A stretch of DNA of 64,000 nucleotides, taken from positions 1-64,000 of the forward strand of contig JACMJM010000032.1 in the NCBI GenBank assembly GCA_014380615.1, written 5' to 3'. The DNA is from Sphingobacteriaceae bacterium. Lineage in GTDB: Bacteria > Bacteroidota > Bacteroidia > Sphingobacteriales > Sphingobacteriaceae. How positions within the stretch are numbered: position 1 is the stretch's first letter; each line of letters starts with the position of its first letter. This document shows, piece by piece, positions 7,027-23,932 of this stretch. Below the pieces are notes generated by a model, which ran no database searches, was not told the DNA's origin, and saw nothing but the letters and a program-made list of their open reading frames with translations. The position numbers and the translations under genes are program-made.

Positions 7027-7977
7027 ATGACAACAGAACCTTCTTTTTGGCAACGTATTGGCATCCACGAATGGTTTTTAAACGATAGCGGCGCTGCGCC
7101 TACCGAACCTGAAGCACTTACTCCAAACGTAGTTTACAAGTATATCATTGATAAATTCAAAGAGTCTATCGGGCAATTAACTTTTGCCGACAGGATAGTT
7201 TTTTACCACGAATACATCATCAGCTTTAATCCTGATGATTACCGGGAATTTATGGACAATAAGAAAGGGATTTTCGGACTTATTGTACAGGAAGCTGTAA
7301 AAAAGTTTTATGAAGTTTTAAACCAATATCGGGCAGAAGGGAAAACGGTAGAACCCTCGAGCAGTAAATGGGTGTTTCGTTTTGTATCGCATCCCGATTA
7401 TGCCCGTGGTGATAAGGGATTTATCGGCAAACTGTTACCTGGCGGAAGTCAGAAAGATGAAAACCTCAGAGTAACATTTATTCCCCGCCAAACGGGTATT
7501 GCCGAAACATTCGACGTTAACGACGATATTTTAAAGGGTTTTAACTTCTATAGCGAAGGGTATTATGAAGTCCCTTATGTTGACGAATTAAAGTACGACG
7601 AAACCAAGCTTAAAAATACCGAACAAACCGGATTCGCACGTTTTGAAACTATTCTTCCCGATAAGGCTTACCGGGGGCATAAAGTGGAGTTCTTTATGAA
7701 AGATGAGCAGATTACCATTTCGGGCGATGAGGAAACAAATACCGATTCGAATGTATTTAAAATCCCTTCCGAATGGGTAAATACACCGCATCTATTTATT
7801 AAACACAATAAGTCCGAAGGCAAATTCTACCTTGCCTCCTTCGGCGAAAAAACCATCGTAAACGAAAAGGAGGTACAGCCGAGTACTGATGTACATTCTC
7901 CTGCCTGGGTAGAACTCCCTATCAACTCGAGGATGATATTAAACGGTATTGTAGGAATCAATATTTTTAAATCATAG
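7027..7977 (+). CDS. FhaA-like protein with degenerate FHA domain
   Basis: 316 residues, first gene of the kinase/phosphatase/RodA-PBP locus. Residues about 45-150 (TFADRIVFYHEYIISFNPDDYREF and following, ending SSSKWVFRFVSHPD) resemble the DUF3662/FhaA N-terminal domain, which carries the pattern of an FHA-protein adaptor next to RodA/PbpA in Actinobacteria. The last 110 residues look like an FHA beta sandwich (QITISGD, FYLASFGEKTIVNEKEV, ELPINSRMIL). The usual phosphothreonine-binding GR and SxxH residues are missing, so it may have lost phosphopeptide binding. No signal peptide or membrane helix; cytoplasmic. The similarity is by eye and distant; fold prediction would settle it. Confidence 0.55.
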   Translation: MTTEPSFWQRIGIHEWFLNDSGAAPTEPEALTPNVVYKYIIDKFKESIGQLTFADRIVFYHEYIISFNPDDYREFMDNKKGIFGLIVQEAVKKFYEVLNQYRAEGKTVEPSSSKWVFRFVSHPDYARGDKGFIGKLLPGGSQKDENLRVTFIPRQTGIAETFDVNDDILKGFNFYSEGYYEVPYVDELKYDETKLKNTEQTGFARFETILPDKAYRGHKVEFFMKDEQITISGDEETNTDSNVFKIPSEWVNTPHLFIKHNKSEGKFYLASFGEKTIVNEKEVQPSTDVHSPAWVELPINSRMILNGIVGINIFKS

Positions 7978-7978
7978 T

Positions 7979-8077
7979 ATGTCGCAGATCTTAACGGTAG
8001 CACTGCTTTTTATTTGCGCCTTTTTATTGGCCGCACATTTTAAGGATATAAAAAACACGCATAAACGTAATGGCTGA
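7979..8077 (+). CDS. 32-residue single-pass membrane peptide
   Basis: Short frame from ATG 7979 to TGA 8077. The peptide starts MSQILTVALLFICAFLLAA, one hydrophobic helix, then a basic tail HFKDIKNTHKRNG. It begins one base after the stop of the FhaA-like gene and overlaps the start of the PP2C gene by eight bases, so it sits in a tightly coupled position. That placement and the perfect helix-plus-basic-tail composition argue for a real small protein, but nothing of its function is known. An alternative is a pure coupling leader. Confidence 0.6.
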   Translation: MSQILTVALLFICAFLLAAHFKDIKNTHKRNG

Positions 8078-9518
8078 GAACTTTTTTGGATTAACAGATA
8101 CTGGAAAAGTACGGGATAACAATGAAGATGCCTTCATCGCTAAAAAGGTGATGGATAATAAATTCATTATTGCCTGTGCCATTGACGGGGTGGGCGGTTA
8201 CTCGGGCGGCGAGATTGCGGCCGAAATTGCCCGCGAGTCGATCTTTGAAAACTTTGCGCGGCCTTCCGGCGATCTTATAGCTGCCATGAAATCATCGTTT
8301 ATTCTGGCCAATCAAAAAATATTCAACGAGAAGCTGCAGAATAAAGAACACGGGAAAATGGCTTGTGTACTTACGCTGGCCGTAGTAGATGTGGAGAATA
8401 ATCAGTTTCATTATGCCCATGTGGGCGATACAAGGTTGTATTTACTGCGTGATAGTTCGCTGGTGAAGGTTTCCAAAGATCATTCATTTGTTGGGTTTCT
8501 CGAAGATTCGGGCCGTATTGATGAAGATGCCGCCATGAAACATCTTAAACGCAATGAGATTAACAAAGCCCTTGGTTTTGGAACAGATATAGAAACCCAG
8601 GATGATTATATCGAAACAGGAAGCTCACCGTTTTTGCCCGGCGATTTACTTCTGCTTTGCAGCGACGGATTAACCGATATGGTTAATAAGGACGATATTA
8701 CTTCCATCTTAATAAGTAATAATTCGCTGGAAGAAAAAGCGAAACAGCTGGTTGCCTTGGCCAACAAAAATGGCGGTAAGGACAATATTACAGTAGTTTT
8801 GGTTCAAAACGATACGGCGTCGTCCTGGCAGGCCACCCCGCCTGCGGGTATAGTTTCCGGCTCGGCTGTTAAAAAAAAAGTAGCGACTAACTATCCCGCC
8901 CCGGTAGCGGAAAATAAAACCGCAATAATACCCGCTCCGGTAACGCCTCTTACCAAATCAAACGGCATCAATAAAATTCTGGGGGGCTTATGTCTGCTTT
9001 TTTTAGCAAGTACACTATTCTTACTGTGGCGCAATGCCCCGGGAACTGAAGAGGAGAATACTGTGGTTGCGCCTGTAGCCGACACCAGAAATGCTGAAGA
9101 GAAAAAACTTCAGGGTCTTTTAGATGCGGTTGCCAACGATACACTCTTGCTTTCGGATTCCATTTTTAAACAGCCTATCGTTATCAGCGATACACTGAAC
9201 ATTCATCAGGATTCTTTATTTATTTTAAGCAAGGGAAAAATAATTCTTCGAGGAGATAGCGCATTCCATGGCCCCGCATTTATGCTCTCCACCGATTCGA
9301 GATTGGTTTTACTCGACGGCCTGCAATTTGAAAATTTCGATGTAGCTGTTTCGGCTCAAAACGATGCTTTGTTTTTACGCAACGTTCAGTTTCTCAATTG
9401 CAAATGGCCCATACAAAACTTTTTTGTATTTCCTGATAAGCAATTCATCACCGGTCGTTTAGCCGGTTCTTATGTGTTTCGCACCGATTCGTTAATTACA
9501 ACAGCACCTACAAGATAA
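8070..9518 (+). CDS. Membrane-anchored PP2C-type Ser/Thr phosphatase (PstP-like)
   Basis: 482 residues. The PP2C domain spans about 5-245 with metal-binding motifs RDNNEDAF (15-22), IDGVGG (38-43), VGDTRLYLL (118-126), CSDGLTD (197-203) and GKDNITVVLV (236-245). A Pro/Ala-rich linker follows, then a membrane helix at about 302-321 and a 160-residue C-terminal domain outside the cytoplasm with repeated beta-strand-like segments (DSRLVLLDGLQFENFDVAVS). It should remove phosphates placed by the two kinases downstream, analogous to PstP. The next gene starts one base after its stop. It differs from PstP in having a longer, unrelated-looking ectodomain of unknown role. Confidence 0.9.
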   Translation: MAENFFGLTDTGKVRDNNEDAFIAKKVMDNKFIIACAIDGVGGYSGGEIAAEIARESIFENFARPSGDLIAAMKSSFILANQKIFNEKLQNKEHGKMACVLTLAVVDVENNQFHYAHVGDTRLYLLRDSSLVKVSKDHSFVGFLEDSGRIDEDAAMKHLKRNEINKALGFGTDIETQDDYIETGSSPFLPGDLLLLCSDGLTDMVNKDDITSILISNNSLEEKAKQLVALANKNGGKDNITVVLVQNDTASSWQATPPAGIVSGSAVKKKVATNYPAPVAENKTAIIPAPVTPLTKSNGINKILGGLCLLFLASTLFLLWRNAPGTEEENTVVAPVADTRNAEEKKLQGLLDAVANDTLLLSDSIFKQPIVISDTLNIHQDSLFILSKGKIILRGDSAFHGPAFMLSTDSRLVLLDGLQFENFDVAVSAQNDALFLRNVQFLNCKWPIQNFFVFPDKQFITGRLAGSYVFRTDSLITTAPTR

Positions 9519-9519
9519 C

Positions 9520-12500
9520 ATGACAGAAGATACCCTTGTATTAAAAAAAGGAAGAAAGACAGAGCGTTTGTTTTTAGTGTTAATTGCCGTAGTTCTGGGG
9601 GCTTTATTTTTCTATCTATACACCGTAATACAGTGGGATTTTAAGGATGTAAATAGCCGTTTATCGAACGGCACCATGCTTAATTTAAATGGCCGGGAGC
9701 CGGGGGAAGGGATAAAAACTCTCCTCAGGAAAGGGTATTATTTTGACGATAAAAAAGACATTGAACTAATCGGTTCGGTGGTGGCCAAGGGACTTAATCC
9801 GGCCGATAGGGCCATTGATAATATCGGGGAATTAAATAAGCGAAAATTCTTCGTCGATGCGGATGATGCGTATATCCGCGGGGGTGAAAATCTAAAGAAT
9901 CGGGTCATAGCTTCGCGTTCGCTGCTTGGTTTTACCGGCGACGATTCTATCGCCTTTGCGCAAGAGAGAAACAAGCCTCAGCAATTGCCCGCAATTACAA
10001 CTGTAGGTATGGGTAAGTATGGTATTTCCGGGCTGATAAAAGACAGGGAAGGAAAGCCCGTGTCGGGAGTGCTGGTACGGTTGCAAATGATATTGCCGCA
10101 AGATAGTGCCTACAGCGAAACAGTAACCGAAGTTGAAACGGAACTTATTGAAACAGGTGACGGATTTAAAAAAGGCTATCTGCTCGATTCTCTTAAACAC
10201 AAACAGTTAGAATCGTTAACTGCCTACGCCCGCAGCGACGCGAATGGCGTTTACACGTTTAAAGGTTTGCCCGATGATAAAGCTTTTGAGCTTTTGCCCT
10301 TAAAACCTGGTTTCCAGTTCGGAATATCGCAGGGGGTGCAGCAGTTAGATGATGATGAGAAATTGAATTTTGTACAGTCGCCACACACTATCAGGCTTTT
10401 ATCTACCCGGGATTTTAACATCCTCAAAAAGGAACGTTCATTAATTGTACGTACCCCCGAAGAGTTTAACGAATGGTTCTGGATTATAATGGGATGCTTT
10501 TTTGGTGGATTTTTGCTCGTGCATCTGGTGTTATCGATAAAATTCCCAGAAGCAGACCAATTGTTGATGCCCTTTATTATGCTGCTTACAGGGCTGTCGA
10601 TTTTAACCCTCTTAAGTTTGCAGGATCCGCTTCGCGATCGCTTTCTGGCTAAAGACACCTTGCTTTATTTAGGCATCGGGCTGTTCGGTATCTGTGCCAT
10701 GATGTTTGTAAAAGTTCGCAAATTTAATGTTGATAACAGCCTGTACCGGATGTTCATTTTCAAAAAGAACAAAAAAGCCGCCAACGGATGGCCCTGGGCC
10801 GCCGCCGCTGTTGGCTTACTGGCTCTTACAATTGTATTCGGCACCGGTCCGGAGGGTAGCGGAGTTAAAGTAAACCTGTTTGGCTTCCAGCCCAGCGAAA
10901 TTGTAAAATACTTTATCATCTTTTTTCTGGCAGGATTTTTTGCCACCAACGAGCGGTTTATCAGCGAATACCGAAGTTACCGTAAGCGCTGGTCATTCTT
11001 TTCATTCGCCTTAATCGCCATCCTCATCTCTATTTTTCTCTTTTTAGTGCTTGGCGATTTGGGGCCCGCAATGGTTGTTTGTTTTACATTTATTATCCTC
11101 TTTTCATTCTCCCGGGGCGATTTCATGTTCATGATAGGCTCGGTAGTGCTGTATGTTGTGGCGGCATGGATCTTAAACAGTATATGGCTCGCTACCGGCA
11201 TTACAGTTGTTTTGGTAGTTCTGGCCATGATTTTTAAGCGTAAGCAAATCAGCGAGTCGGCGGTAATGGCTTTGATGATTATCGCAGGCTTTTTATTAAT
11301 AGACCAGATCCCTTACCTCGATCAACTCTTCCCCGGTCCGGTAAAACGCTTAACCGAACGTAAAGCCATTTGGCAAGATGCCTGGAACAATGAAGTGTAT
11401 GGAGGCGACCATGTTGCCAACGGGATCTGGGCCATGTCTAGCGGCGGTGTCACCGGTCAGGGAATTGGCGAGGGTTTTGGTAAAACTATACCTGAAGCTC
11501 ATACCGATATGATTTTACCCGCCATTGGCGAGGAGTTTGGCTGGGCCGGTATCGTATGTATTTTCATTCTGTTTTTGATCTACCTTCATCGTTCCATTAA
11601 TGTGGGCCGCCAAACCGGTAATCCCTTTTTGTTTTACCTGAGTGCCGGTATCGGTATTAGTACCTTCGTGCAGTTTTTGCTTATCGCGGGTGGCTCTACA
11701 GGGGCGCTGCCGCTTTCGGGTGTATCGCTGCCTTTTGTAAGCTATGGCGGTTCGTCTATGGTGGCAAATTTTCTGGCGGTTGGGTTCTTGCTTTCAACTT
11801 CGATGGTGAGAGGTACAGAGGTGCAGATGGGATACGTAACTAGGCAGCACGATAAGAACCTCATTCCCGCATTAGCGGCCGCATTAATAGGGGTGCTGTT
11901 ACTCACGGTTAACGTTTCCAGGTATTTATTTAACAATAAAAAATGGGTGGTACAGCCATCGCTCGTAGCGGATAGAAGCGGACTGAGAATGTTTAGTTAT
12001 AATCCGCGAATCGCTATCCTGATGAACAGGCTGCAAGCCGGAAATATTTACGACAGGGACGGCAGGCTTCTTGCCACAAGTAAGCCTGAACTTATCAGGC
12101 AGCAGCAAGGTGTGCTTCGGGCGGCCGGAGGGCTTAACTTTGATATCGATTCGGTAATCCATAAACGATTAGACCGATATTATCCTTTTGCCGAAGAAAC
12201 CTTTTTCTGGACCGGCGACGCCAATACAGGTATTTTTGGAGGTAGTACAAACGGCTATTTTGCCGAGTACCAGCATTCGGCAGAACTACGGGGATTTAAT
12301 ACGCCTACCGAAAAGGTAACAGCTATCGCCAGTGCTTATCGCGAAGACCGCTTTTTGGCAAGGGGAGTTAAAGAGATGACGGTGGTTAAAAAAGACTATG
12401 GCGAACTCGCTCCGTTGCTGCTCGCCGGAATAAACAGTAAAGAAGTGGAGCAGTTTAAAAAGCGTAACCGCGATGTGCAATTAACAATTGATGCCCGCCT

Positions 12501-13737
12501 TCAAACCACTATCCAGCGTTCTATCGCCATGGACGATTCTTTGAAGGACAATCGTGTTTCGGTAGTGATTATGGAAGATTATACCGGAGACGTGATCGCA
12601 TCTGCCAATTACCCGCTCCCCCCGGTAAACAACTGGGAGCAAATGACCATGACCATGTCTGAACAAAACAGAATGGCCCAATGGATGACCACCCAGGATT
12701 TAGGCTTTACGTACGCAACTCAGCCCGGTTCTACCGCCAAGGTGGCCACAGCCATTGCGGCGTTTAATAAGCTTGGAATGGATGCTCTTAAAACAGTGTT
12801 TACTGTTAGCCCGCACGAAATTATTCGTAGAAAGGGACCCGAACCCGATGAAACAGGCAGAATAGGCCTTGAACGTGCGCTTGTAAGATCGAATAACGTG
12901 TATTTCATTAAGCTTGCCAACGAAGAGCAGTTGCAGGAAGACATGGTAAATGTTTATTTAAAAGCGGGCATGTTTTTACGAGGCGTTGGAGGCTTTTATT
13001 ATGAGAAGGATGGCGAAGACTTACAGCAAGAAAATAAATGGCGCGAACTGTGGAGAAACACCGAGTTCAAAACCCGGCCGCATTACGACCCTAATAATAT
13101 CAGGCGTACGAGAGCGAAAGGGATTTCGGGTATGTCGTGGGGGCAGGGCGAACTCATCGCTACGCCTGCTTCAATAGCCAGAATGGCTGCTGGTGTTGCC
13201 AATCATGGTAATATAGTTGCCAACAGGTATGTATTAAAGGTGCATAATCGAGAACAAGGTGTAAAAGGAAGCACCAAACTAACCAACGACCCTAAATACG
13301 CCGATCTGGTAAAAGACCTGATGTTAAAACAGAGTGCGCCAAAGGTTGCCATTCTGGGTATTGCCGTAGGAGGTAAAACCGGAACTCCCGAAAGAATTTG
13401 GAAACGAGAACGGATTAACGATGGTTGGTACGTGTTTTTTGCTCCGAAGATGAAAGGGCAGGGCCATGTGGTGGTCTGCATTCGTGTAGAATCAACTAAA
13501 GGATCGAGCGATGCCGTGGCGTTGGCGGGCAAGCATATTATTCCGCTGTTGCTGCAAAGAGGGTATATTAAAAGTTTCGCATCATCGCAGCCTGTAAGCG
13601 GGCGATTAATGGGCGATGGCACACCTACTCCGGGACCGGTAAATTCTCCTTCTCCCGTTAACGGAGCTAACCCCGAGCCGGCACCTTCCAATGCAGATGT
13701 TGCTCCTCAGCCGCCGGATACTGCCGGAGGGGGATAG
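9520..13737 (+). CDS. RodA/FtsW glycosyltransferase fused to class B penicillin-binding transpeptidase
   Basis: 1405 residues, a natural fusion of the two enzymes that build septal or side-wall peptidoglycan. Order: membrane helix (about 17-39); periplasmic segment of about 275 residues containing a carboxypeptidase-regulatory-like beta sandwich near 165-260 (GLIKDREGKPVSGVLVRLQM); polytopic SEDS domain (about 318-800) with the FtsW/RodA signature GVSLPFVSYGGSS near 735; then a PBP domain opening with NIYDRDGRLLATSK near 845. Transpeptidase motifs are intact: SxxK as STAK (Ser1071), SxN as SNN (1124-1126), KTG at 1286-1288. A Pro/Gly-rich tail (about 1365-1405) ends the protein. SEDS proteins polymerise lipid II and the PBP crosslinks. 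Sitting between phosphatase and kinases, it is likely their target. Usual RodA and PBP2 are separate proteins of about 400 and 600 residues. Confidence 0.93.
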   Translation: MTEDTLVLKKGRKTERLFLVLIAVVLGALFFYLYTVIQWDFKDVNSRLSNGTMLNLNGREPGEGIKTLLRKGYYFDDKKDIELIGSVVAKGLNPADRAIDNIGELNKRKFFVDADDAYIRGGENLKNRVIASRSLLGFTGDDSIAFAQERNKPQQLPAITTVGMGKYGISGLIKDREGKPVSGVLVRLQMILPQDSAYSETVTEVETELIETGDGFKKGYLLDSLKHKQLESLTAYARSDANGVYTFKGLPDDKAFELLPLKPGFQFGISQGVQQLDDDEKLNFVQSPHTIRLLSTRDFNILKKERSLIVRTPEEFNEWFWIIMGCFFGGFLLVHLVLSIKFPEADQLLMPFIMLLTGLSILTLLSLQDPLRDRFLAKDTLLYLGIGLFGICAMMFVKVRKFNVDNSLYRMFIFKKNKKAANGWPWAAAAVGLLALTIVFGTGPEGSGVKVNLFGFQPSEIVKYFIIFFLAGFFATNERFISEYRSYRKRWSFFSFALIAILISIFLFLVLGDLGPAMVVCFTFIILFSFSRGDFMFMIGSVVLYVVAAWILNSIWLATGITVVLVVLAMIFKRKQISESAVMALMIIAGFLLIDQIPYLDQLFPGPVKRLTERKAIWQDAWNNEVYGGDHVANGIWAMSSGGVTGQGIGEGFGKTIPEAHTDMILPAIGEEFGWAGIVCIFILFLIYLHRSINVGRQTGNPFLFYLSAGIGISTFVQFLLIAGGSTGALPLSGVSLPFVSYGGSSMVANFLAVGFLLSTSMVRGTEVQMGYVTRQHDKNLIPALAAALIGVLLLTVNVSRYLFNNKKWVVQPSLVADRSGLRMFSYNPRIAILMNRLQAGNIYDRDGRLLATSKPELIRQQQGVLRAAGGLNFDIDSVIHKRLDRYYPFAEETFFWTGDANTGIFGGSTNGYFAEYQHSAELRGFNTPTEKVTAIASAYREDRFLARGVKEMTVVKKDYGELAPLLLAGINSKEVEQFKKRNRDVQLTIDARLQTTIQRSIAMDDSLKDNRVSVVIMEDYTGDVIASANYPLPPVNNWEQMTMTMSEQNRMAQWMTTQDLGFTYATQPGSTAKVATAIAAFNKLGMDALKTVFTVSPHEIIRRKGPEPDETGRIGLERALVRSNNVYFIKLANEEQLQEDMVNVYLKAGMFLRGVGGFYYEKDGEDLQQENKWRELWRNTEFKTRPHYDPNNIRRTRAKGISGMSWGQGELIATPASIARMAAGVANHGNIVANRYVLKVHNREQGVKGSTKLTNDPKYADLVKDLMLKQSAPKVAILGIAVGGKTGTPERIWKRERINDGWYVFFAPKMKGQGHVVVCIRVESTKGSSDAVALAGKHIIPLLLQRGYIKSFASSQPVSGRLMGDGTPTPGPVNSPSPVNGANPEPAPSNADVAPQPPDTAGGG

Positions 13738-13763
13738 AATGGGCAGGCCAAGGGAGGAGATAG

Positions 13764-13827
13764 CTTTTCGAAGCATAGAGCGGGTATTTAAGCCCCACAC
13801 ACGACCCTTCGACAGGCTCAGGGTGAC
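13764..13827. repeat. REP-like palindromic intergenic repeat, copy 1
   Basis: About 64 bases sharing TCGAAGCATAGAGCGGGT and CACACACGACCCTTCGACAG with the copy at 16424-16498. The right arm CTTCGACAGGCTCAGGGTGAC (13807-13827) is intact; the left arm is shortened to CTTTTCGAAG. It is the main content of the 280-base gap between the RodA-PBP and FHA genes. Confidence 0.75.
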
Positions 13828-13916
13828 TGGCCGCCACACCTCATAGGCCGCCTGTCGAAATACCTGGCAGATTCTTTTGCCCGGCAAACATTCTTCGATC
13901 TCGCTCACCGTAACAA

Positions 13917-13949
13917 CGCATGGAAAAACTAATTTAAGTTTTCCATGCG
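13917..13949. repeat. Hairpin between RodA-PBP and FHA genes
   Basis: CGCATGGAAAAACT (13917-13930) and AGTTTTCCATGCG (13937-13949) pair over 13 bases with one bulged A and a six-base loop. No T-run follows, so it may stabilise or process the operon transcript rather than end it. It lies 68 bases ahead of the FHA gene. Confidence 0.55.
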
Positions 13950-14017
13950 CCCAACAATAACGCCTTATTTCTGTTTCATAAACAAGCGATTACTAAATCA
14001 ATAGAAAGGTATAATTC

Positions 14018-14800
14018 ATGTTCGAAATATTTAACACCGACGCGGAAAGTCCGCAGGATGTAAAAAGCCTGCGCGATGCTTTGCTGCGTTCTATAAAGGA
14101 AGAATTGCAAGTTGTTGAAGGCGGAGAAGGGAAACATATACGGGGATTGCAATTGTTTATCACCTGTTCAGAAAATGAGAAACATGTATACGAATCGGCG
14201 GTTTACAGCGAAGAACCAACTCTTTTTAAACAAGAAATTCAGCGCATAGCGGATGATTTTGCTATCGACCTGCCTTCGGGCTGGACACTGGAAGTTACTT
14301 TCGAAGAAACCTTACCTCCAGAAGCTAAAAAGTTATCGGAAGTTCATGCTGCTTTGTTTATTAAAACCCGAAAACAAACTATACAAAAATCGGGTATCGC
14401 ATACATTAAAATTTTAAGCGGCCAGGCAGAAAAAGAAGAGTATGAAATTAATTCAGTTTCCGGAAAAATCACTATCGGCCGTGAGAAACGCGCTCAAACG
14501 GATGACGGATTTTTCAGAATAAATACCATCGCTTTTCCTGGCGATTGCGGCAATGATTGTAATAAATATATCAGTCGGCAGCATGCCCATGTTGAATGGA
14601 ACAATGATGCGGGCTGTTTTATGATTTTTGCCGACGAGGGTGGGGTGCCCCCGAAAAATAAAATAAAAATCAAATCTGTAGAGGATGACAACCTCATAAA
14701 ATTAAATTCTACGCATATCGGGCACCGCTTAAAAGAAGGCGATCAGATCATTCTTGGTGAAACTGCCGTGATAGAATTTTCCACTTCGGCACAATCTTAG
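14018..14800 (+). CDS. FHA-domain protein
   Basis: 260 residues. The N-terminal 115 residues are of unrecognised family (two short alpha/beta segments, MFEIFNTDAESPQDVKSL and following). The C-terminal FHA domain (about 145-255) has the phosphothreonine-binding set: ITIGRE (Gly-Arg), ISRQHAHVEW (Ser-Arg-x-His) and LKEGDQIILGE. An inserted loop carries two cysteines, CGNDC. No membrane segment; cytoplasmic. It probably binds an autophosphorylated kinase or the phosphorylated RodA-PBP protein, as FhaB does in Actinobacteria. It is followed by the first kinase after a 106-base gap. Confidence 0.88.
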   Translation: MFEIFNTDAESPQDVKSLRDALLRSIKEELQVVEGGEGKHIRGLQLFITCSENEKHVYESAVYSEEPTLFKQEIQRIADDFAIDLPSGWTLEVTFEETLPPEAKKLSEVHAALFIKTRKQTIQKSGIAYIKILSGQAEKEEYEINSVSGKITIGREKRAQTDDGFFRINTIAFPGDCGNDCNKYISRQHAHVEWNNDAGCFMIFADEGGVPPKNKIKIKSVEDDNLIKLNSTHIGHRLKEGDQIILGETAVIEFSTSAQS

Positions 14801-14906
14801 TTATAGTTATATATAACACACAAAGATTCGGGGCTAATACCCGGTGCATACACATGAGATAAAGCCTGGGAGTTCAAAATTCCAGTCTTTGTATACTATT
14901 AAACCA

Positions 14907-16376
14907 ATGGCTAAAGTATTCACAATAACAGAAGGATTAGAGAACATGGGCGCATTGCGTACCGGTGGACAGGGTTCTGTCTACAAGGGTAGACGCATAG
15001 GGGAGATTATTACCGCTGTTAAACTTTTACCTACGCCTATTCATACCGAAGACGATAACGATAAGAACTTTAAAGATTTTCAAAATGAAGTGACTAAGCT
15101 CAAACGCGTAAATCAGGAGCCGAACCCAAACGTTGTTAAAATTTTAAATTCCGGAATTACCGAAAGCGGCTCTCTTCCGTTTATAGAAATGGAATTTATT
15201 GAAGGGCCTGATCTTGAAGAGTTATTAAAACCTCCTCACGATACCGTTTTCAGTATCCGCGAAGTAATTAAAGTTGCCGATCAGCTATCGAACGCACTAG
15301 CGCATTGCCATAAAGTGGATGTAAAGCATGGTGATATAAAAAGTAATAATGTAAAGTTTAACCTTCATTCGGGTAATTACATGCTGCTCGATTTCGGCCT
15401 TGCGGTAATGTCTGATGAACAGCGTCGTACCAGTTTAAGGCATGCCGGGGCTATTGAGTTTATGGCGCCTGAGCAAAATGCCGGTGAAATGCTTTTCCAA
15501 ACCGATGTGTATAGTTTCGGAGTGATTTTGTTTGAGCTTTTGGCAGGCGTAGTGCCTTTTCCTTTACGGGATAAAGGAGAAACCTCAAGAAATGCTGTAA
15601 TGGTGTCTCACATGGAAACGCCTGTACCCGACGTACTGGCTTTACGAAGAAATAACCTTCCGGCAAACTGGAACGATGATAAACGGGCACGTGAGATGCG
15701 GGTTCCGGGCTGGTTACTTACTATTATAGCAAAGTGCCTTGAAAAACGATCCGAAAATCGTTTTAAAAACGGAATGGAATTGCACGAGGCCATAGTGTTA
15801 AACAGCACATCTCCGATAGATGATTTCGCTTATAATACCGGCGATATAGCGGTTTTGCAAAGCGAGAACGAACGCTTAAAAAATCTGCTCCTGCAATACC
15901 AGCAACAATCCGCTAAAGCTGTTGGATTGGCTTCGGCACAGGAAAACAATTCGATAAAAGAAACTGGGGCGTATTCTTTAAAAAGCGAAAATCGGACAGG
16001 TGCCGGGTGGTTAAATGCTGCTGCCTTCGGCGGCTTAAAACCCGTTGTAATCGGACTTATTATACTTCTTAGCTGCCTGGGTTTATTTGCGGGCTTTTCG
16101 ATGTACAACAGCCGAAATTCTGCCTTGGGGATCGATACCGCAAGTGTTAACGCAGAAAAGCAACGGCTTAGAGATTCTATCGCTACGCTCGAGAGGTTAA
16201 ACGCTAAACGCATTCAGGACTCTATTGATAATGCACGGAGATACAATTCGATAAAGCAGCAAATAACAGCGGTACAGCAAGAGGAACAGGAAAAACTGGA
16301 TAAGGATGCTGAAAAGGAGGAGAAAAAGAGAAGGAAGAAATTTTTTGACATACGATTTGAAAGAAAGCGCGACTAG
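14907..16376 (+). CDS. Transmembrane Ser/Thr protein kinase 1
   Basis: 489 residues from ATG 14907. I chose this start because the paralogue at 16605 begins at the same residue (MxKVFTITEG); the frame extends 21 codons up to 14844 with no kinase-like content. Kinase domain about 1-290: Gly loop GGQGSVYKG, Lys39 in AVKLL, catalytic HGDIKSNN with Asp143, Asp162 of DFG, and MAPEQ in the activation segment. HRD is replaced by HGD, so it is a non-RD kinase, a class usually not needing activation-loop phosphorylation. A membrane helix (about 380-401) leads to a short charged coiled-coil ectodomain (LRDSIATLERLNAKRIQDSI to the basic C-terminus). No PASTA repeats. Confidence 0.92.
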   Translation: MAKVFTITEGLENMGALRTGGQGSVYKGRRIGEIITAVKLLPTPIHTEDDNDKNFKDFQNEVTKLKRVNQEPNPNVVKILNSGITESGSLPFIEMEFIEGPDLEELLKPPHDTVFSIREVIKVADQLSNALAHCHKVDVKHGDIKSNNVKFNLHSGNYMLLDFGLAVMSDEQRRTSLRHAGAIEFMAPEQNAGEMLFQTDVYSFGVILFELLAGVVPFPLRDKGETSRNAVMVSHMETPVPDVLALRRNNLPANWNDDKRAREMRVPGWLLTIIAKCLEKRSENRFKNGMELHEAIVLNSTSPIDDFAYNTGDIAVLQSENERLKNLLLQYQQQSAKAVGLASAQENNSIKETGAYSLKSENRTGAGWLNAAAFGGLKPVVIGLIILLSCLGLFAGFSMYNSRNSALGIDTASVNAEKQRLRDSIATLERLNAKRIQDSIDNARRYNSIKQQITAVQQEEQEKLDKDAEKEEKKRRKKFFDIRFERKRD

Positions 16377-16377
16377 T

Positions 16378-16562
16378 GTGGTGGTATAATGGACAAATAG
16401 TGTTGTTAAGGCACAAAGGTAGCGTCATGCTGAGCCTGTCGAAGCATAGAGCGGGTTTGTGCCACCCACACACGACCCTTCGACAGGCTCAGGGTGACGT
16501 CCGGTGCACACGCAGAGGTGTAGCCGTAATCGCTTGGGCTTCGACTCCGCTCAGCCTGACAT
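16378..16562. repeat. Composite of REP-like palindrome (copy 2) and related repeats between the kinase genes
   Basis: The 228-base gap holds three repeat modules. First, 16378-16435 resembles two units at 34447-34592 (shared TGGACAAATAGTGTT and AAAGGTAGCGTCATGCTGAG). Second, a REP palindrome has arms 16424-16444 and 16478-16498 (21 bases, two mismatches), the right arm reading CTTCGACAGGCTCAGGGTGA. Third, 16539-16560 is a variant arm, CTTCGACTCCGCTCAGCCTG. An apparent 62-codon frame across it is an artefact of the repeat. Confidence 0.75.
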
Positions 16563-16604
16563 AGTACAATGACACGACACTAGCCAAAATAAAAGAAAAA
16601 AATA

Positions 16605-18293
16605 ATGGGTAAAGTATTCACAATTACAGAAGGCTTGGAAAATATGGGCGCTTTGCGCACCGGCGGGCAGGGCTCTGTCTATAAAGGCAGACGCATTGGC
16701 GAAATTATAAGCGCTGTTAAGCTTTTGCCAACGCCCATTCATACTGAAAATAACGACGACAAAAATTTTAGAGATTTTCAGAACGAAGTAGAAAAGCTGA
16801 AAAAAGTTAATGAAGAACCTAATCCAAACGTTGTTAAAATTCTAAACTCCGGTATTACAGAAAGCGGCTCTTTTCCTTTTATCGAAATGGAGTTTATAGA
16901 AGGGCCCGACCTCGAGGAATTATTAAAGCCCCCTCATGATCCTGTTTTTAGTATCCGCGAAGCGATAAAAGTTGCCGATCAATTGTCGAATGCCCTGGCC
17001 CATTGCCATAAGGTTTCGGTAAAACACGGCGATATAAAAAGTAATAATGTAAAATTTAACATCCGTTCGGGTAATTATATTTTACTTGATTTCGGGCTTG
17101 CTATTATGTCTGATGAGCAACGCCGCAGCAGTCTTCGGCATGCAGGAGCCATTGAATTTATGGCTCCAGAGCAAAACGACGGCAAGATGCTTTTTCAAAC
17201 CGATGTATATAGCTTCGGAGTAATCCTATTCGAACTTCTTGCAGGTATTGTTCCTTTCCCTTTGCTCGATAATGGCGAAACCTCCAGGAATACCGTAATG
17301 GTTTCGCACATGGAAACGCCCCTGCCCGATATTCTTGAACTTCGGCGCAAGCATTTACCCGCAACATGGCCGCAGGATAAAAAAGATAGTGAGATGCATG
17401 TTCCCGAATGGTTATTAGGGATCATATCCCGCTGTTTGGAAAAAAATCCTGAAGCGCGTTTTAAAGATGGGGTAGAATTGCATGAGGCGGTTATTTCTCA
17501 TAGTACAGTAGCTGTAAAAAGTGTTCCTGCCGATACCGAAAGCGTTGCCGTATTGCAAAGTGAAGTAAACAGGCTTAATGCCTTGTTGCTGCAATATCAG
17601 GAAGCCGCAACTAAAACTCCCGGACTAGCAGCTATTCAAGAGGAAAGCAGAGACGCCCGAATGTATGATCGGGATAGAAAATCGAGCGTAAGCCTTTCCA
17701 GGCCGGTGTTTTTTACATTGTTGATTCTACTAGCCGGTTTAGGGGTGTTTGCTGCTTATTCTTTATTTAACAGAAAGGGTAGCTCTGAAATGGATCTTAC
17801 TACCGCAGGTATAGATACTATTGCCGCCGCCGATACAGCGGGAATGACAGACGAGCAAAAAGATGAAATTTTAATACAAAAGCGAACAGCACGTGCGGTT
17901 TCAAGACGCGATTCAATCCGCGAAGCGGATAGTTTAAAAGCGATAAAAAGCCAGCAAGAAGACCTGGAAAATAACCCGCCCGCCGAGGAACCCCTGCCTG
18001 AAGATGACGCAGTAATAGACACTTCATCTGAAAGGCCAATGGGCACAAATGATACCGAACCGCCGAATGTACCCGACCGAAAAAAATATACTTTGGCAGT
18101 GCCGAAAGCCTTTTTTCACACTCAACCCGATGCGTCAACTCGCAGAGCAGCCCATCTTGTGCATTGGAACAATGCCGAACTTACTGCTCTGGACGATCGA
18201 AACGGATATATTTATGTAGTTTTTTTTAATACCGCAGGCCAGATTACCAAAGGCTGGCTCAAAAAAAGCGATCTAAAAAGGATTGGCAGATAG
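16605..18293 (+). CDS. Transmembrane Ser/Thr protein kinase 2 with SH3-like ectodomain
   Basis: 562 residues. The first ~290 residues are nearly the same protein as kinase 1 (same Gly loop, AVKLL Lys, HGDIKSNN, DFGLA, MAPEQ), while codon third positions differ widely, so this is an old duplicate held by selection. A membrane helix lies at about 368-390. The ectodomain differs completely from kinase 1: a charged, Asp/Glu-rich linker, then a C-terminal bacterial SH3-like domain (about 493-562; KYTLAVPKAFFHTQPDAS, GWLKKSDLKRI) of the kind that binds peptidoglycan or peptides. It may sense wall status and signal to the RodA-PBP fusion. Confidence 0.92.
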   Translation: MGKVFTITEGLENMGALRTGGQGSVYKGRRIGEIISAVKLLPTPIHTENNDDKNFRDFQNEVEKLKKVNEEPNPNVVKILNSGITESGSFPFIEMEFIEGPDLEELLKPPHDPVFSIREAIKVADQLSNALAHCHKVSVKHGDIKSNNVKFNIRSGNYILLDFGLAIMSDEQRRSSLRHAGAIEFMAPEQNDGKMLFQTDVYSFGVILFELLAGIVPFPLLDNGETSRNTVMVSHMETPLPDILELRRKHLPATWPQDKKDSEMHVPEWLLGIISRCLEKNPEARFKDGVELHEAVISHSTVAVKSVPADTESVAVLQSEVNRLNALLLQYQEAATKTPGLAAIQEESRDARMYDRDRKSSVSLSRPVFFTLLILLAGLGVFAAYSLFNRKGSSEMDLTTAGIDTIAAADTAGMTDEQKDEILIQKRTARAVSRRDSIREADSLKAIKSQQEDLENNPPAEEPLPEDDAVIDTSSERPMGTNDTEPPNVPDRKKYTLAVPKAFFHTQPDASTRRAAHLVHWNNAELTALDDRNGYIYVVFFNTAGQITKGWLKKSDLKRIGR

Positions 18294-20316: not shown

Positions 20317-20335
20317 GTTTGAATAGTGTTTGAAT
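20317..20335 (+). promoter_or_regulatory. Paired arm-type sites near attL
   Basis: Two copies of GTTTGAAT at 20317-20324 and 20328-20335, an 11-base step. The same pair recurs near the other end (25634-25652), in the same orientation, inside the element. This suggests integrase or excision-factor binding. Confidence 0.6.
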
Positions 20336-20371
20336 GACTACCATTCAGCAAATGACCATAATCCCCAAATT

Positions 20372-21574
20372 ATGGTACAATTAAAGATTGTTCTAAACAC
20401 AAGACAAAAGAAAGCCGATGGAACTTACAGCATCTACTACACAATCACAGAATCAAGAAAGGTCTATTACGTCTATTCGGGTTATTCGGTAGTACAAGAG
20501 CATTGGAATGAAGCAAACAGAACTGTAAAGAAGGCAAATCTCAACGCACAAGTAATTAATGCTTCAATTAGCAAACGATATTTTGAAATTCAGAAAATCA
20601 TCGTGCAATTGGAAGATGAGAAGCAATTTTCGATTAGCAGATTAAAGGAAAGGTTGAATCCTAAGAAAGTGATAACAACGGTAAAGGAATTTGCTGATAT
20701 GCTAATAGAGCAAATGTTTTCTCAAAATCAAACAGGAAACGCAATCATTTACAGGACGGCTATCAATAAGCTCTTTGCCTTCCATCCTAATACAGCATTA
20801 CGCTTTATCGACATAGATTTAAGATTCTTGGAAAACTATCATGCCTTTCTTATAGAAGAAAAGATTAGCGTTAATGGTATTAGCAATTACTTAAGAACTC
20901 TAAGGGCGATTTATAACAAGGCAATAAGAGAGAAGGTCATTGAAAAGAACTATTATCCGTTTGGTGATTTTAAAATCAAGCAAGAGAAAACTATAAAAAG
21001 AGCAGTCAATAGTGATGTAATTAAGCGTATTAAATCTAGCGGATTTGAATATAGTTCTATTCAGAATGCAAGAGATATGTTTCTGCTTTCGTTTTATCTC
21101 ATTGGTATTTCTTTTACAGACTTAGCTTATTTGAAGAGAGCAGACATTCAGGGTAATAGATTAATGTATCGAAGAAAGAAAACCGGTAAGCTTTATAATG
21201 TCCTGATTAATAATGAAGCATTGACCATTATAAACAAATACTCGCACTCTACACAGAAATACTTATTGCCAGTTCTTGGAAATGATGTAATTGAAGGTAG
21301 TCTGCAAGCAAAGTGTTTAATACATCAATGGATTAAAACCACAAATAAGTATCTCAATAAGGTAGTTGAGGAATTGAAGATTGAATACAAGCTTACAACT
21401 TACGTATCAAGACATTCTTGGGCAACAATTGCCAAGCGGTTGGGGTATTCAAACGAAGTGATTGCAGAAGCAATGGGGCATGAGTACGGCAATTCTACAA
21501 CTAATATCTATCTGGATGCTTTCGATAAAGGCGTAATAGATGAAATGAGTAAACGAGTAAGTAGCCTTAGTTAA
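20372..21574 (+). CDS. Tyrosine recombinase / integrase of the tRNA-Val element
   Basis: 400 residues from ATG 20372 (MVQLKIVLNTRQKKADGTYS), where the arm-binding domain typical of Bacteroidota integrases begins; the frame upstream to 20330 adds 14 unlikely residues. Order: arm-binding domain (about 1-90), SAM-like core-binding domain (about 95-200), catalytic domain (about 210-400). Catalytic residues visible: Arg347-His348 in SRHSWAT, the His of GHEYGNS, and nucleophile Tyr380 in TTNIYLD. The position of the first catalytic Arg reads FYLIGISFTDLAYLK, with no Arg before GIS. It is adjacent to attL and transcribed inward, as in most tRNA-targeted elements. Confidence 0.9.
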   Translation: MVQLKIVLNTRQKKADGTYSIYYTITESRKVYYVYSGYSVVQEHWNEANRTVKKANLNAQVINASISKRYFEIQKIIVQLEDEKQFSISRLKERLNPKKVITTVKEFADMLIEQMFSQNQTGNAIIYRTAINKLFAFHPNTALRFIDIDLRFLENYHAFLIEEKISVNGISNYLRTLRAIYNKAIREKVIEKNYYPFGDFKIKQEKTIKRAVNSDVIKRIKSSGFEYSSIQNARDMFLLSFYLIGISFTDLAYLKRADIQGNRLMYRRKKTGKLYNVLINNEALTIINKYSHSTQKYLLPVLGNDVIEGSLQAKCLIHQWIKTTNKYLNKVVEELKIEYKLTTYVSRHSWATIAKRLGYSNEVIAEAMGHEYGNSTTNIYLDAFDKGVIDEMSKRVSSLS

Positions 21575-21616
21575 ATTCTAAATATTGGATAGTTTTGTTT
21601 TATAGAACTATCCAAT

Positions 21617-22366
21617 ATGGTAGAAGAGCTAGAGCAGTATAAGTCGTTGATAATAAAAGCAAAGGGGGAATTTCAGATTGATGTAGTTATTCACACAATT
21701 GGGCATAGGGATTCAAATGAATATGAAGAAAAACAGGTCGATTTACAAACTACAAAATTTAATGGCTATGAACCTTTAGAGCGATTTAAAGCCAAGTTAA
21801 AATCTCTTAGTATTATCCTTGAAACGGAATACTTATTAGGAGATAGCAGCATATTATCAGAGTTAAAACCACTGAAAGATGTTTTCAGTCAGGCATCTAA
21901 TCAAATACAACATAAGGCATTTGAAGCAACATCGAACGTAGGCTATGAACCTACTGAAAATGATTTTCAAGAATATATAGTAGAGGCTTATAATAGCTTA
22001 ACTACGTTAATAGATTATCTGGAAAACGAGTTTCTAAACTTATTCATTGGTAATGAAAAAAAAGTAAAGGATAATAAAATGTTAGTGGATAGGATATTGG
22101 TAGAGTTTAAACTGATTGATAAATACGGAGAATCCTTATTGACAGAAAGGGGAAAAGCAATTGCATGGGTTGTAATAGACTTGCTTATTGAAGGTAATGT
22201 AATTAAAAAAGTTCCAGAACGTGACCTTATTACAAAATTCTGGAAGTACATCAAGGGTTCAGGGAATCCACCAATAAAACCACATAGAACATCAGATACT
22301 TATAAAAAAACTAAGTCTAAGTTGGCTAAATACCTTAATCAAATCAAACTGATTAACGACAATTAA
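21617..22366 (+). CDS. Element protein of unknown function
   Basis: 249 residues, no recognised family. It is charged and mostly helical. The C-terminal 80 residues look like a winged-helix or other small helical domain (LLTERGKAIAWVVIDLLIEG, then RDLITKFWKYIKGSG and a Lys-rich end TYKKTKSKLAKYLNQ). It lies 42 bases after the integrase and about 55 bases before the helicase, so it may be a replication or regulatory partner. Cytoplasmic by composition. Confidence 0.7.
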   Translation: MVEELEQYKSLIIKAKGEFQIDVVIHTIGHRDSNEYEEKQVDLQTTKFNGYEPLERFKAKLKSLSIILETEYLLGDSSILSELKPLKDVFSQASNQIQHKAFEATSNVGYEPTENDFQEYIVEAYNSLTTLIDYLENEFLNLFIGNEKKVKDNKMLVDRILVEFKLIDKYGESLLTERGKAIAWVVIDLLIEGNVIKKVPERDLITKFWKYIKGSGNPPIKPHRTSDTYKKTKSKLAKYLNQIKLINDN

Positions 22367-22420
22367 CGACAAGGCAATACCTCCCTTTAATTATCATCTT
22401 TTTTGGAAAAACTTAAAAGT

Positions 22421-23932
22421 ATGATAAATAGCGATAAAGAAAATTTCAGTAGTATCATCTATTACGATGAACTAGTTCAGGTAAGTCCAAAAGCAAAAGC
22501 ATTCCATTTCTGGGAGTTTTCCAAAGATTTGAACATAAGCAGTGTCTATAGAAAGGGATTCTTAAAATTCCTCACAGAACATGGATTTTATAGAAGGGTA
22601 TCTTCAAATGGCTCTTGGGGGTTGGTGAAAATCACCAATGGAGTTATTGAATATGTTTGTAAAGAGGACATAGTAATTTACATAAAGAACTATGTAGAGA
22701 GTATAACAAAACCTCTTAAAATCTACTATTCAAGAGGCAGAAGAGAATATAAGGTTATTGAATCAGAACAGTTTGCAAACGTTTTCTATAAGCAATTTCA
22801 TTTAGTCATAAACGAAGCATTTCTAATAGCTCTTGAGTTTGATAATAGTCAAACTTTGAATGATACTAAAGACTCGGCTTATTTGCTATTTAAGAATACT
22901 GTTGTAAAGGTAACCGAAGATAATGTTACTCTAAGTGATTATAGTGAGTTTGATAATCTGTTAGTATTTGAATCCCAAATAATAGATTCGGATTTTGAAT
23001 TTAATGACGAATGGAAAAACTGTCAATTCGCACAGTTTGTAAGAAATATAACTAATGATGATACTAATAGAAAGAATGCATTAAGGTCAGCTATTGGATA
23101 TTTGATTCATGGATTCAATGACCCTGCGAAATCGCAAGCTGTAATTCTTTATGATGAAGAATTAACAGATAAAAATACTCCGAAAGGTGGTACAGGTAAG
23201 GGTATTATTGGACAGGCTCTTTCCAAAATCAAGAAAGCGTTTATACAGTTAGACGGAAAATCATTAAGACTGGATTCGCAATTTTTATTTCAAAGAATCA
23301 AGGAAGATACTAGAATAATTTTCATAGATGATGTAGCAAAAAACTTTGATATTGATAGATTAAATTCTATTCTCACAGAGGGCATCACAATAGAGGAAAA
23401 GTTCAAGAAGCCTGTTCATATTGCTAAAGTGAATATGCCTAAGTTCCTTATAGCATCAAATATTATACTTCCGTTTGATGGTACAACAAGAACAAGAAGG
23501 CAATTCGTGATTGAACTGTCGAACCATTATTCAAATAAACTAAGTGCTGGTATCACGGAGCCTATACTACAAGAGCATAAAGCCAGGTTCTTTAGTGAAG
23601 AGTGGAGTAATTCCGAATGGAATGGCTTTTACACGTTCATTGTAAAATCAGTTCAATATTATTTAGCGAATGGATTAGTTCCACCACCTAAATTAAATAT
23701 GGAAATAAATTGGTTAATCCAGAAAATAGGGAAACAAGCATACTATTACTTTGAAAGTATTGAGTTACAAAAAGGGCAGGAGAGAATAACGAAAGATATT
23801 TACGAAGAGTTTAAGAAGCAAATACTAGATGATAGTTATAGCCAACGCCTATTTTCTGATAACCTAAAAGCTTACTTGAAATATAAGGGTATGAGTTCCA
23901 AATTTGATAAGGGCAAAGTGTTAATTGAATAA
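22421..23932 (+). CDS. SF3-like primase/helicase of the integrated element
   Basis: 503 residues from ATG 22421; a TTG six codons upstream (22403) is the alternative. Walker A GGTGKG is at residues 256-261, Walker B RIIFIDDV near 299-305, and a sensor-like segment PKFLIASNIIL with Arg-rich TTRTRRQF follows, as in DUF5906/D5-type superfamily 3 helicases of phages and satellites. No clear polymerase/primase active site is visible in the N-terminal half, so it may act as a helicase-loader only. It probably unwinds the element's origin for autonomous replication after excision. Directly upstream is a tandem ATTAACGACAA repeat (22353-22373). Confidence 0.8.
   Translation: MINSDKENFSSIIYYDELVQVSPKAKAFHFWEFSKDLNISSVYRKGFLKFLTEHGFYRRVSSNGSWGLVKITNGVIEYVCKEDIVIYIKNYVESITKPLKIYYSRGRREYKVIESEQFANVFYKQFHLVINEAFLIALEFDNSQTLNDTKDSAYLLFKNTVVKVTEDNVTLSDYSEFDNLLVFESQIIDSDFEFNDEWKNCQFAQFVRNITNDDTNRKNALRSAIGYLIHGFNDPAKSQAVILYDEELTDKNTPKGGTGKGIIGQALSKIKKAFIQLDGKSLRLDSQFLFQRIKEDTRIIFIDDVAKNFDIDRLNSILTEGITIEEKFKKPVHIAKVNMPKFLIASNIILPFDGTTRTRRQFVIELSNHYSNKLSAGITEPILQEHKARFFSEEWSNSEWNGFYTFIVKSVQYYLANGLVPPPKLNMEINWLIQKIGKQAYYYFESIELQKGQERITKDIYEEFKKQILDDSYSQRLFSDNLKAYLKYKGMSSKFDKGKVLIE

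Follow-up and report, generated by a model that had tools for sequence, protein, structure and literature searches.

A transferred accessory locus of Bacteroidota with a predicted peptidoglycan synthase and the gene content of the actinobacterial fhaA-pstP-rodA-pbpA-pkn cluster

Why would a member of the Bacteroidota carry a set of kinase, phosphatase and FHA-domain genes arranged around a peptidoglycan synthase, and does this set run the growth of its host? The question is raised by a locus at positions 7027-18293 of a 64,000-nucleotide stretch of DNA from a Sphingobacteriaceae bacterium (assembly GCA_014380615.1, contig JACMJM010000032.1, positions 1 to 64,000; hereafter, the window). The locus encodes an FhaA-like protein, a PP2C-type phosphatase, a fusion of a SEDS protein with a class B penicillin-binding protein (PBP), a second FHA-domain protein and two membrane Ser/Thr kinases, a set that we refer to, in the window and elsewhere, as the module. 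In Mycobacterium, a locus of this kind controls wall growth by phosphorylation, and FhaA has been found bound to phosphorylated MviN and CwlM (PMC6554272, PMC11898655); the pstP locus is found in Actinobacteria, and a pknB-fhaA linkage exists in some Firmicutes (PMC6554272). A first-pass annotation, made from the sequence of the window, had drawn the comparison with the actinobacterial locus and had taken the module to be the wall-growth locus of its host. The comparison is largely right; the assumption that the locus runs host growth is wrong. With moderate confidence, we interpret the module as an accessory, self-contained, phospho-switched peptidoglycan synthase that descended from the same ancestral set as the actinobacterial fhaA-pstP-rodA-pbpA-pkn locus. 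The gene set, the domains and motifs, the conservation of the unit, its patchy, mobile distribution and the separate core machinery of the host make up the observed part of this interpretation.

Gene content and domain architecture of the module

The region from 7027 to 18293 is filled by six open reading frames (ORFs), all on the + strand. Their coordinates were confirmed, and both the ORF positions and the Pfam domains agree with the six same-strand genes listed in the first-pass annotation. The largest of these is a single ORF of 1405 amino acids (9520-13737), in which a SEDS domain (Pfam FTSW_RODA_SPOVE, E 7.6e-44) is fused to a transpeptidase domain (Pfam Transpeptidase, E 1.4e-24). The protein starts with a transmembrane segment (residues 13-40), followed by a periplasmic segment (~41-317), the SEDS domain (~342-765), another transmembrane segment (779-804), the transpeptidase (1014-1332) and a proline-rich tail. 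The catalytic motifs, HTD in the SEDS domain and PGSxxK in the transpeptidase, are each kept in 100/100 sequences and, because they are, the fusion would be expected, as judged from sequence, both to polymerize and to crosslink. The N-terminal periplasmic segment (9640-10470) shows weak similarity to CarboxypepD_reg (0.0013 for the window protein, 7e-5 for that of Spirosoma) and belongs to no clear family.

Separated from the start of the fusion by a gap of 1 bp is the stop codon of the PP2C-type Ser/Thr phosphatase gene (8070-9518; Pfam PP2C, E 1.8e-14). The phosphatase consists of a cytoplasmic catalytic domain, in which the metal-site motifs DGVGGY and DN are kept in 93/93 sequences, one transmembrane segment (299-321) and a periplasmic tail. 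The tail (8970-9515) has no clear family.

The first gene (7027-7977) encodes a soluble protein of 316 amino acids that gave no match in the Pfam scan of the window proteins; in particular, the FhaA_N model does not fire. Modeling with AlphaFold 2 and comparison with Foldseek delineated an FhaA_N/DUF3662-like domain (approximately residues 33-136) and a divergent FHA fold (204-316). When the N-terminal 190 residues were folded alone, the top Foldseek match among 350,542 PDB chains was 2LC0, the N-terminal domain of M. tuberculosis FhaA, with a probability of 1.00, and the other listed matches to this part had probabilities of 0.33 or less; the TM-score against 2LC0 was moderate (0.51 on the target). 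In the AlphaFold model of the full protein, the C-terminus is an FHA fold, with many matches at a probability of 1.00, including the FHA domain of M. tuberculosis FhaA (3oun). Thus, by predicted structure, the first protein has the architecture of FhaA, and the FhaA-like label given in the first-pass annotation, hardly visible in the sequence alone, turns out to be right.

The second FHA-domain protein (260 amino acids, 14018-14800; Pfam FHA, 1.6e-6) has an intact phosphothreonine pocket, with the GR and SRxH motifs present in 99/99 homologues. Compared with FhaB, it has a longer N-terminal domain and a different position in the locus; comparison of this N-terminal domain with FhaA_N gave no signal.

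The two membrane Ser/Thr kinases are encoded at 14844-16376 (kinase 1; Pfam Pkinase, 1.2e-32) and 16605-18293 (kinase 2; Pkinase, 2.7e-32). For kinase 1, the ATG at 14907 is a more probable start than the GTG at 14844, because conservation within the family begins at the former. The protein comprises a non-RD (HGDIKSNN) kinase domain, a transmembrane segment at about 390-423 and a charged, coiled-coil-like tail. Kinase 2 is of the same non-RD type, with 86% identity to kinase 1 over the kinase domain, and has a transmembrane segment at about 361-390 and a C-terminal periplasmic domain that appears SH3-like by eye; this C-terminal part has no Pfam match, and a C-terminal motif recurs in relatives. 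Across the modules, the periplasmic parts of the kinases vary, being, by eye, SH3-like, repeat-like or coiled-coil-like, and because of these differences the kinases are the likely inputs of the system. PASTA domains were found in none of the module kinases, and the PknB_PASTA model scored 135 bits against a cut-off of 450 bits. In two Chitinophagaceae modules (L185:13768-15153 and L186:13654-15039), the kinase located downstream has an FHA domain at its C-terminus, and its catalytic loop contains HND in place of HRD.

Conservation and distribution in Bacteroidota

The closest named relative of the window genome is Paradesertivirga mongoliensis, with 87% identity over the fusion. Among 80 named loci that contain the fusion, the phosphatase is present in 80/80, the FHA protein in 78/80 and the FhaA-like protein in 77/80, all absences being at contig ends, and kinases are within reach of the fusion in 73/80. 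The core order, FhaA-like protein, PP2C, SEDS-PBP fusion, FHA protein, is invariant across 80/80 of these loci, contig ends aside. The kinases, in contrast to this core, vary in number from 0 to 3 or more per locus and are located upstream, inside or downstream of it, or on both sides; in the Spirosoma type, they are inserted between PP2C and the fusion. The same set recurred in a further 21 loci, which are more distant, being either from other families or 35-47% identical, and 19 of these keep the core order. The two exceptions are L178, the second module of its genome, in which the FhaA-like, PP2C and fusion genes are on one strand and the FHA gene and two kinase genes are divergent, and L179, an interrupted copy. 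The association of the core genes is far beyond chance. The possibility, raised at the outset, that these genes would only rarely be found together in relatives is thus put aside by both the named and the distant loci.

The module is patchily distributed. The fusion was found in 40/201 sampled genomes of Sphingobacteriaceae, 37/150 of Spirosomataceae and 13/148 of Chitinophagaceae (9-25%; the family names of these samples were inferred from the matching contigs) and in 7/295 genomes of a class-wide sample. In a sample of the phylum, the FhaA-like protein was detected in 9/395 genomes, the same ones that carry the fusion. Spirosoma oryzicola carries its copy on a 136-kb plasmid, and two Spirosomataceae genomes contain two different copies each, of which one (L176) is of the Sphingobacteriaceae type. 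The genes flanking the module are common to close relatives only. This patchiness, the plasmid copy, the two-copy genomes and the differing flanks identify the module as a transferred accessory island.

The host, for its part, retains its own wall machinery. The window genome contains an ordinary mreB-mreC-mrdA-rodA cluster, with a 171-amino-acid ORF without a Pfam match in the mreD position, and a dcw cluster with the order ftsI-murE-mraY-murD-ftsW-murG. Because these ordinary Rod and FtsI-FtsW loci are present, the synthase of the module is the third of the host. The view of the module as the host's wall-growth locus is therefore abandoned: the ordinary MreBC-PBP2-RodA and FtsI-FtsW loci are kept, and the module is patchy, once plasmid-borne and sometimes duplicated. 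Furthermore, the only Pkinase (2), PP2C_2 (1) and Pfam-detectable FHA (1) matches of the window genome are those of the module, with the caveat that, at 93% completeness, a gene could have been missed, and a member of the family that lacks the module has no Pkinase, PP2C_2 or FHA matches genome-wide.

Origin of the module

The module was compared with four actinobacterial loci (L195-L198, from Nocardia, Tsukamurella, Nonomuraea and Arthrobacter), taken from chromosomal or large replicons that PLSDB lists as plasmids. In the recovered loci, the gene order is fhaA-fhaB-pstP-rodA-pbpA-pknA-pknB; in M. tuberculosis, the locus from fhaA to pknB is Rv0020c-Rv0014c. The records of L195, L197 and L198 (NZ_LN868939, NZ_LT559118 and NZ_AP024649) are among these supposed plasmids, measure 1-12 Mb and carry the core fha-pkn locus; at least that of Nonomuraea, at 11.85 Mb, looks like a chromosome. 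The module and the actinobacterial locus share a protein of FhaA architecture, a membrane PP2C, a RodA-type SEDS protein with a class B PBP, an extra FHA protein and two membrane kinases, with the genes on the same strand and, except for the FHA gene, in the same order as in the window. The one-for-one content claimed in the first-pass annotation thus stands, as does the order within the window, bar the moved FHA gene; that order is not general, however, given that kinase genes occur upstream, inside and downstream in other modules. The differences are substantial, too. In the module, RodA and PBP are fused and have gained an N-terminal periplasmic segment, the kinases lack PASTA domains and vary in lineage, number and place, and the FHA domain of the FhaA-like protein is degenerate. 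Moreover, the module is accessory and patchy, whereas the actinobacterial locus is core throughout its lineage.

The SEDS domain of the module scores 123-136 bits with RodA of the actinobacterial cluster and with a clostridial FHA-linked SEDS protein, compared with 61-94 bits for Bacteroidota RodA and FtsW. In the SEDS tree, the RodA and FtsW proteins of Bacteroidota and E. coli are separated from the module and actinobacterial RodA with support of 100/97, and the same split appears in trees of SEDS and transpeptidase together (95/94 and 96/93), where each E. coli pair joins the corresponding pair of Bacteroidota. Joining the module to Bacteroidota RodA-PBP2 is rejected by the approximately unbiased (AU) test (p 3e-5 and 0.018). 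The phosphatase points in the same direction: in PDB it matches PstP (1txo, 2e-29) and tPphA (4e-34), and in the tree it groups with PstP and the cyanobacterial tPphA, apart from the other PP2Cs of Bacteroidota (100/99). The clostridial relative comes from a plasmid record of Monoglobus pectinilyticus (L274:3876-6861), in which FHA, SEDS and PBP genes are adjacent and the SEDS protein falls together with those of Actinobacteria and of the module. Unlike in the module, these are separate genes, and neither PP2C nor a kinase is adjacent in the stretch seen.

Several observations weigh against our interpretation of the module. The comparison covered the four actinobacterial loci and one clostridial locus and no other phyla, a thin sampling, and the module branches are long. 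Joining the module to FtsW-FtsI is not rejected (AU p 0.087 and 0.137). The kinases fall into several unrelated lineages, none of them nested with PknA or PknB. In the FhaA-like protein of the window subtype, the phosphothreonine-contacting Arg and Ser of the FHA domain are lost; both are kept in the Spirosoma subtype. Finally, by sequence, the relationship to FhaA is weak: hhalign of the FhaA-like profile against the 2LC0 sequence aligned the expected stretch with P 0.018, hmmsearch against PDB gave a weak signal, and a wider profile outscored 200/200 column shuffles, yet an unrelated protein of the module scored higher by chance. Because of the latter, sequence scores are not decisive for the FhaA N-domain, and the case is made by structure.

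One alternative is convergence, under which an unrelated SEDS-PBP fusion of Bacteroidota would have gathered PP2C, FHA and kinases independently, as happened on Rhodococcus plasmids. SEDS-PBP fusions as such are already known: natural single-ORF fusions of Rhodococcus are described in PMC10449877 and its reference 18, the former citing strain RHA1. On the Rhodococcus conjugative plasmid pLW2 (L300:299-8566), we found a DUF4407-kinase, PP2C, FHA, an 883-amino-acid SEDS-PBP fusion and then a 279-amino-acid protein; plasmid records of Rhodococcus fascians D188 contain a related fusion. As in the module, SEDS and transpeptidase are combined in one ORF, which has FHA and PP2C genes next to it and a kinase gene nearby; unlike in the module, the fusion has no N-terminal periplasmic segment, and the kinase is fused to DUF4407. 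The pLW2 synthase clusters with the RodA-PbpA pair of Actinobacteria (96/78) rather than with the module; this fusion is therefore independent of that in Bacteroidota, and such fusions arose at least twice. Convergence would also accommodate the recruitment of kinases from several lineages, the transpeptidase-only tree, which does not resolve the kin of this domain, and the affinity to FtsW-FtsI that is not rejected. We nevertheless consider it unlikely because the FhaA N-domain is elsewhere characteristic of FhaA, the order FhaA-PP2C-RodA-PBP equals that in Actinobacteria, and both SEDS and PP2C tend towards the actinobacterial sequences.

Overall, the shared ancestry of the gene set with the actinobacterial locus, followed by transfer and repeated kinase replacement, is supported but not proven. 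The first-pass annotation had left descent, transfer and convergence side by side and had proposed trees to tell them apart. For the synthase, the evidence favors common ancestry with the actinobacterial/clostridial locus and subsequent transfers within Bacteroidota, with an origin near FtsW-FtsI not rejected; SEDS-PBP and PP2C fall on the actinobacterial side, and the kinases are not orthologues of PknA or PknB. The Bacteroidota locus is real and conserved. No description of this version was found in the literature searched, which mostly left out subscription journals.

Genomic neighborhood in the window

The GC content at third codon positions (GC3) of the module genes, 0.38-0.49, is close to that of the neighboring genes and thus gives no signal of recent import. 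Scans for promoters and terminators yielded matches no more common than in shuffled sequences. Approximately 2 kb downstream of the module, a region of low GC content (20330-23932; 0.32-0.34) contains genes for a DUF5906 protein and for an integrase of the tyrosine type (Phage_int_SAM_5); an integrated mobile element seems to begin here.

Proposed function and alternative explanations

We infer the enzymatic activity, the phosphorylation, the docking and the direction of control in the module as follows. In the fusion, the SEDS half would polymerize lipid II, and the class B PBP half would crosslink the product. The state of the envelope would be perceived by one to three membrane kinases, each with an exchangeable sensor domain in the periplasm, which would then phosphorylate threonines of module proteins. 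As the reader, the FHA protein would dock on these phosphothreonines and either activate or shut off the synthase or bring in precursor supply. The FhaA-like protein might serve as a scaffold that, in subtypes with an intact pocket, also docks on phosphothreonine, and the membrane PP2C would reset the switch. The ancestral set, with relatives in Clostridia, would have been fused once in Bacteroidota and then transferred between families, with the kinases replaced repeatedly, so that the module would be a spare synthase in hosts that keep their normal Rod and divisome machinery. Put in more specific terms, and with the chances slightly short of even, the module might be a mobile plug-in wall synthase of actinobacterial/clostridial descent, in which kinase swaps rewire a constant core to new signals, giving the host a third, independently switched synthase.

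A different role that would suit an accessory position beside normal machinery is that of a stress or beta-lactam-tolerant backup, that is, a low-affinity PBP that has a SEDS partner of its own and is switched on by the kinases when the normal PBPs are inhibited. By sequence, the best PDB matches of the transpeptidase are the low-affinity PBP5 and PBP2a, and PASTA kinases of other phyla govern cell-wall stress. However, this similarity is weak (E about 1e-9) and confined to short stretches, and the module shows no resistance gene or BlaR-type regulator, which makes the backup role a doubtful proposition.

It is also conceivable that the module is a conflict or anti-phage system, in which the kinases would poison the cell unless held by PP2C, with the synthase as target or effector, in the manner of the kinase-kinase-phosphatase (KKP) modules (PMC11341870). 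KKP modules likewise combine PP2C with two kinases and are patchy and located near mobile elements; the Spirosoma type has a PP2C-kinase-kinase run as in KKP (PMC11341870), and the FHA-fused kinase of the L185/L186 subtype is another likeness. The patchiness, the plasmid copy, the swapped kinases and varied sensor domains all resemble conflict systems, the module kinases match PADLOC kinase models, and the integrase-DUF5906 element is 2 kb downstream. Yet, the PADLOC matches are limited to the kinase domains and look generic, with no match for the other module proteins. KKP includes a PfkA-like kinase fused to a cold-shock domain, which was not detected in Pfam scans of the kinases of the window and of representative relatives, and what stays constant in the module is a wall synthase whose active sites are intact. 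No module was found in the viral contigs searched. Taken together, this makes a conflict function very unlikely. Vertical inheritance of an ancestral Bacteroidota locus lost from most lineages, which would fit the presence of the module in three families of the class, is equally improbable given that one Spirosomataceae genome has, in addition to its own copy, one of the Sphingobacteriaceae type, and given the plasmid copy, the flanks common to close relatives only and the occurrence of the module in only 2-3% of the class and phylum samples.

Our preferred interpretation of the module as an accessory, phospho-switched synthase has implications beyond this locus. In mycobacteria, the FhaA, PstP, RodA-PbpA and Pkn components are difficult to remove and either essential or linked to core growth. 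The module, being a dispensable, self-contained island, would offer a clean system for examining the effect of a kinase-FHA-PP2C loop on a SEDS-PBP synthase. It also indicates that such a gene set spreads as mobile, accessory DNA in the Bacteroidota, from which we found no earlier case in the literature searched.

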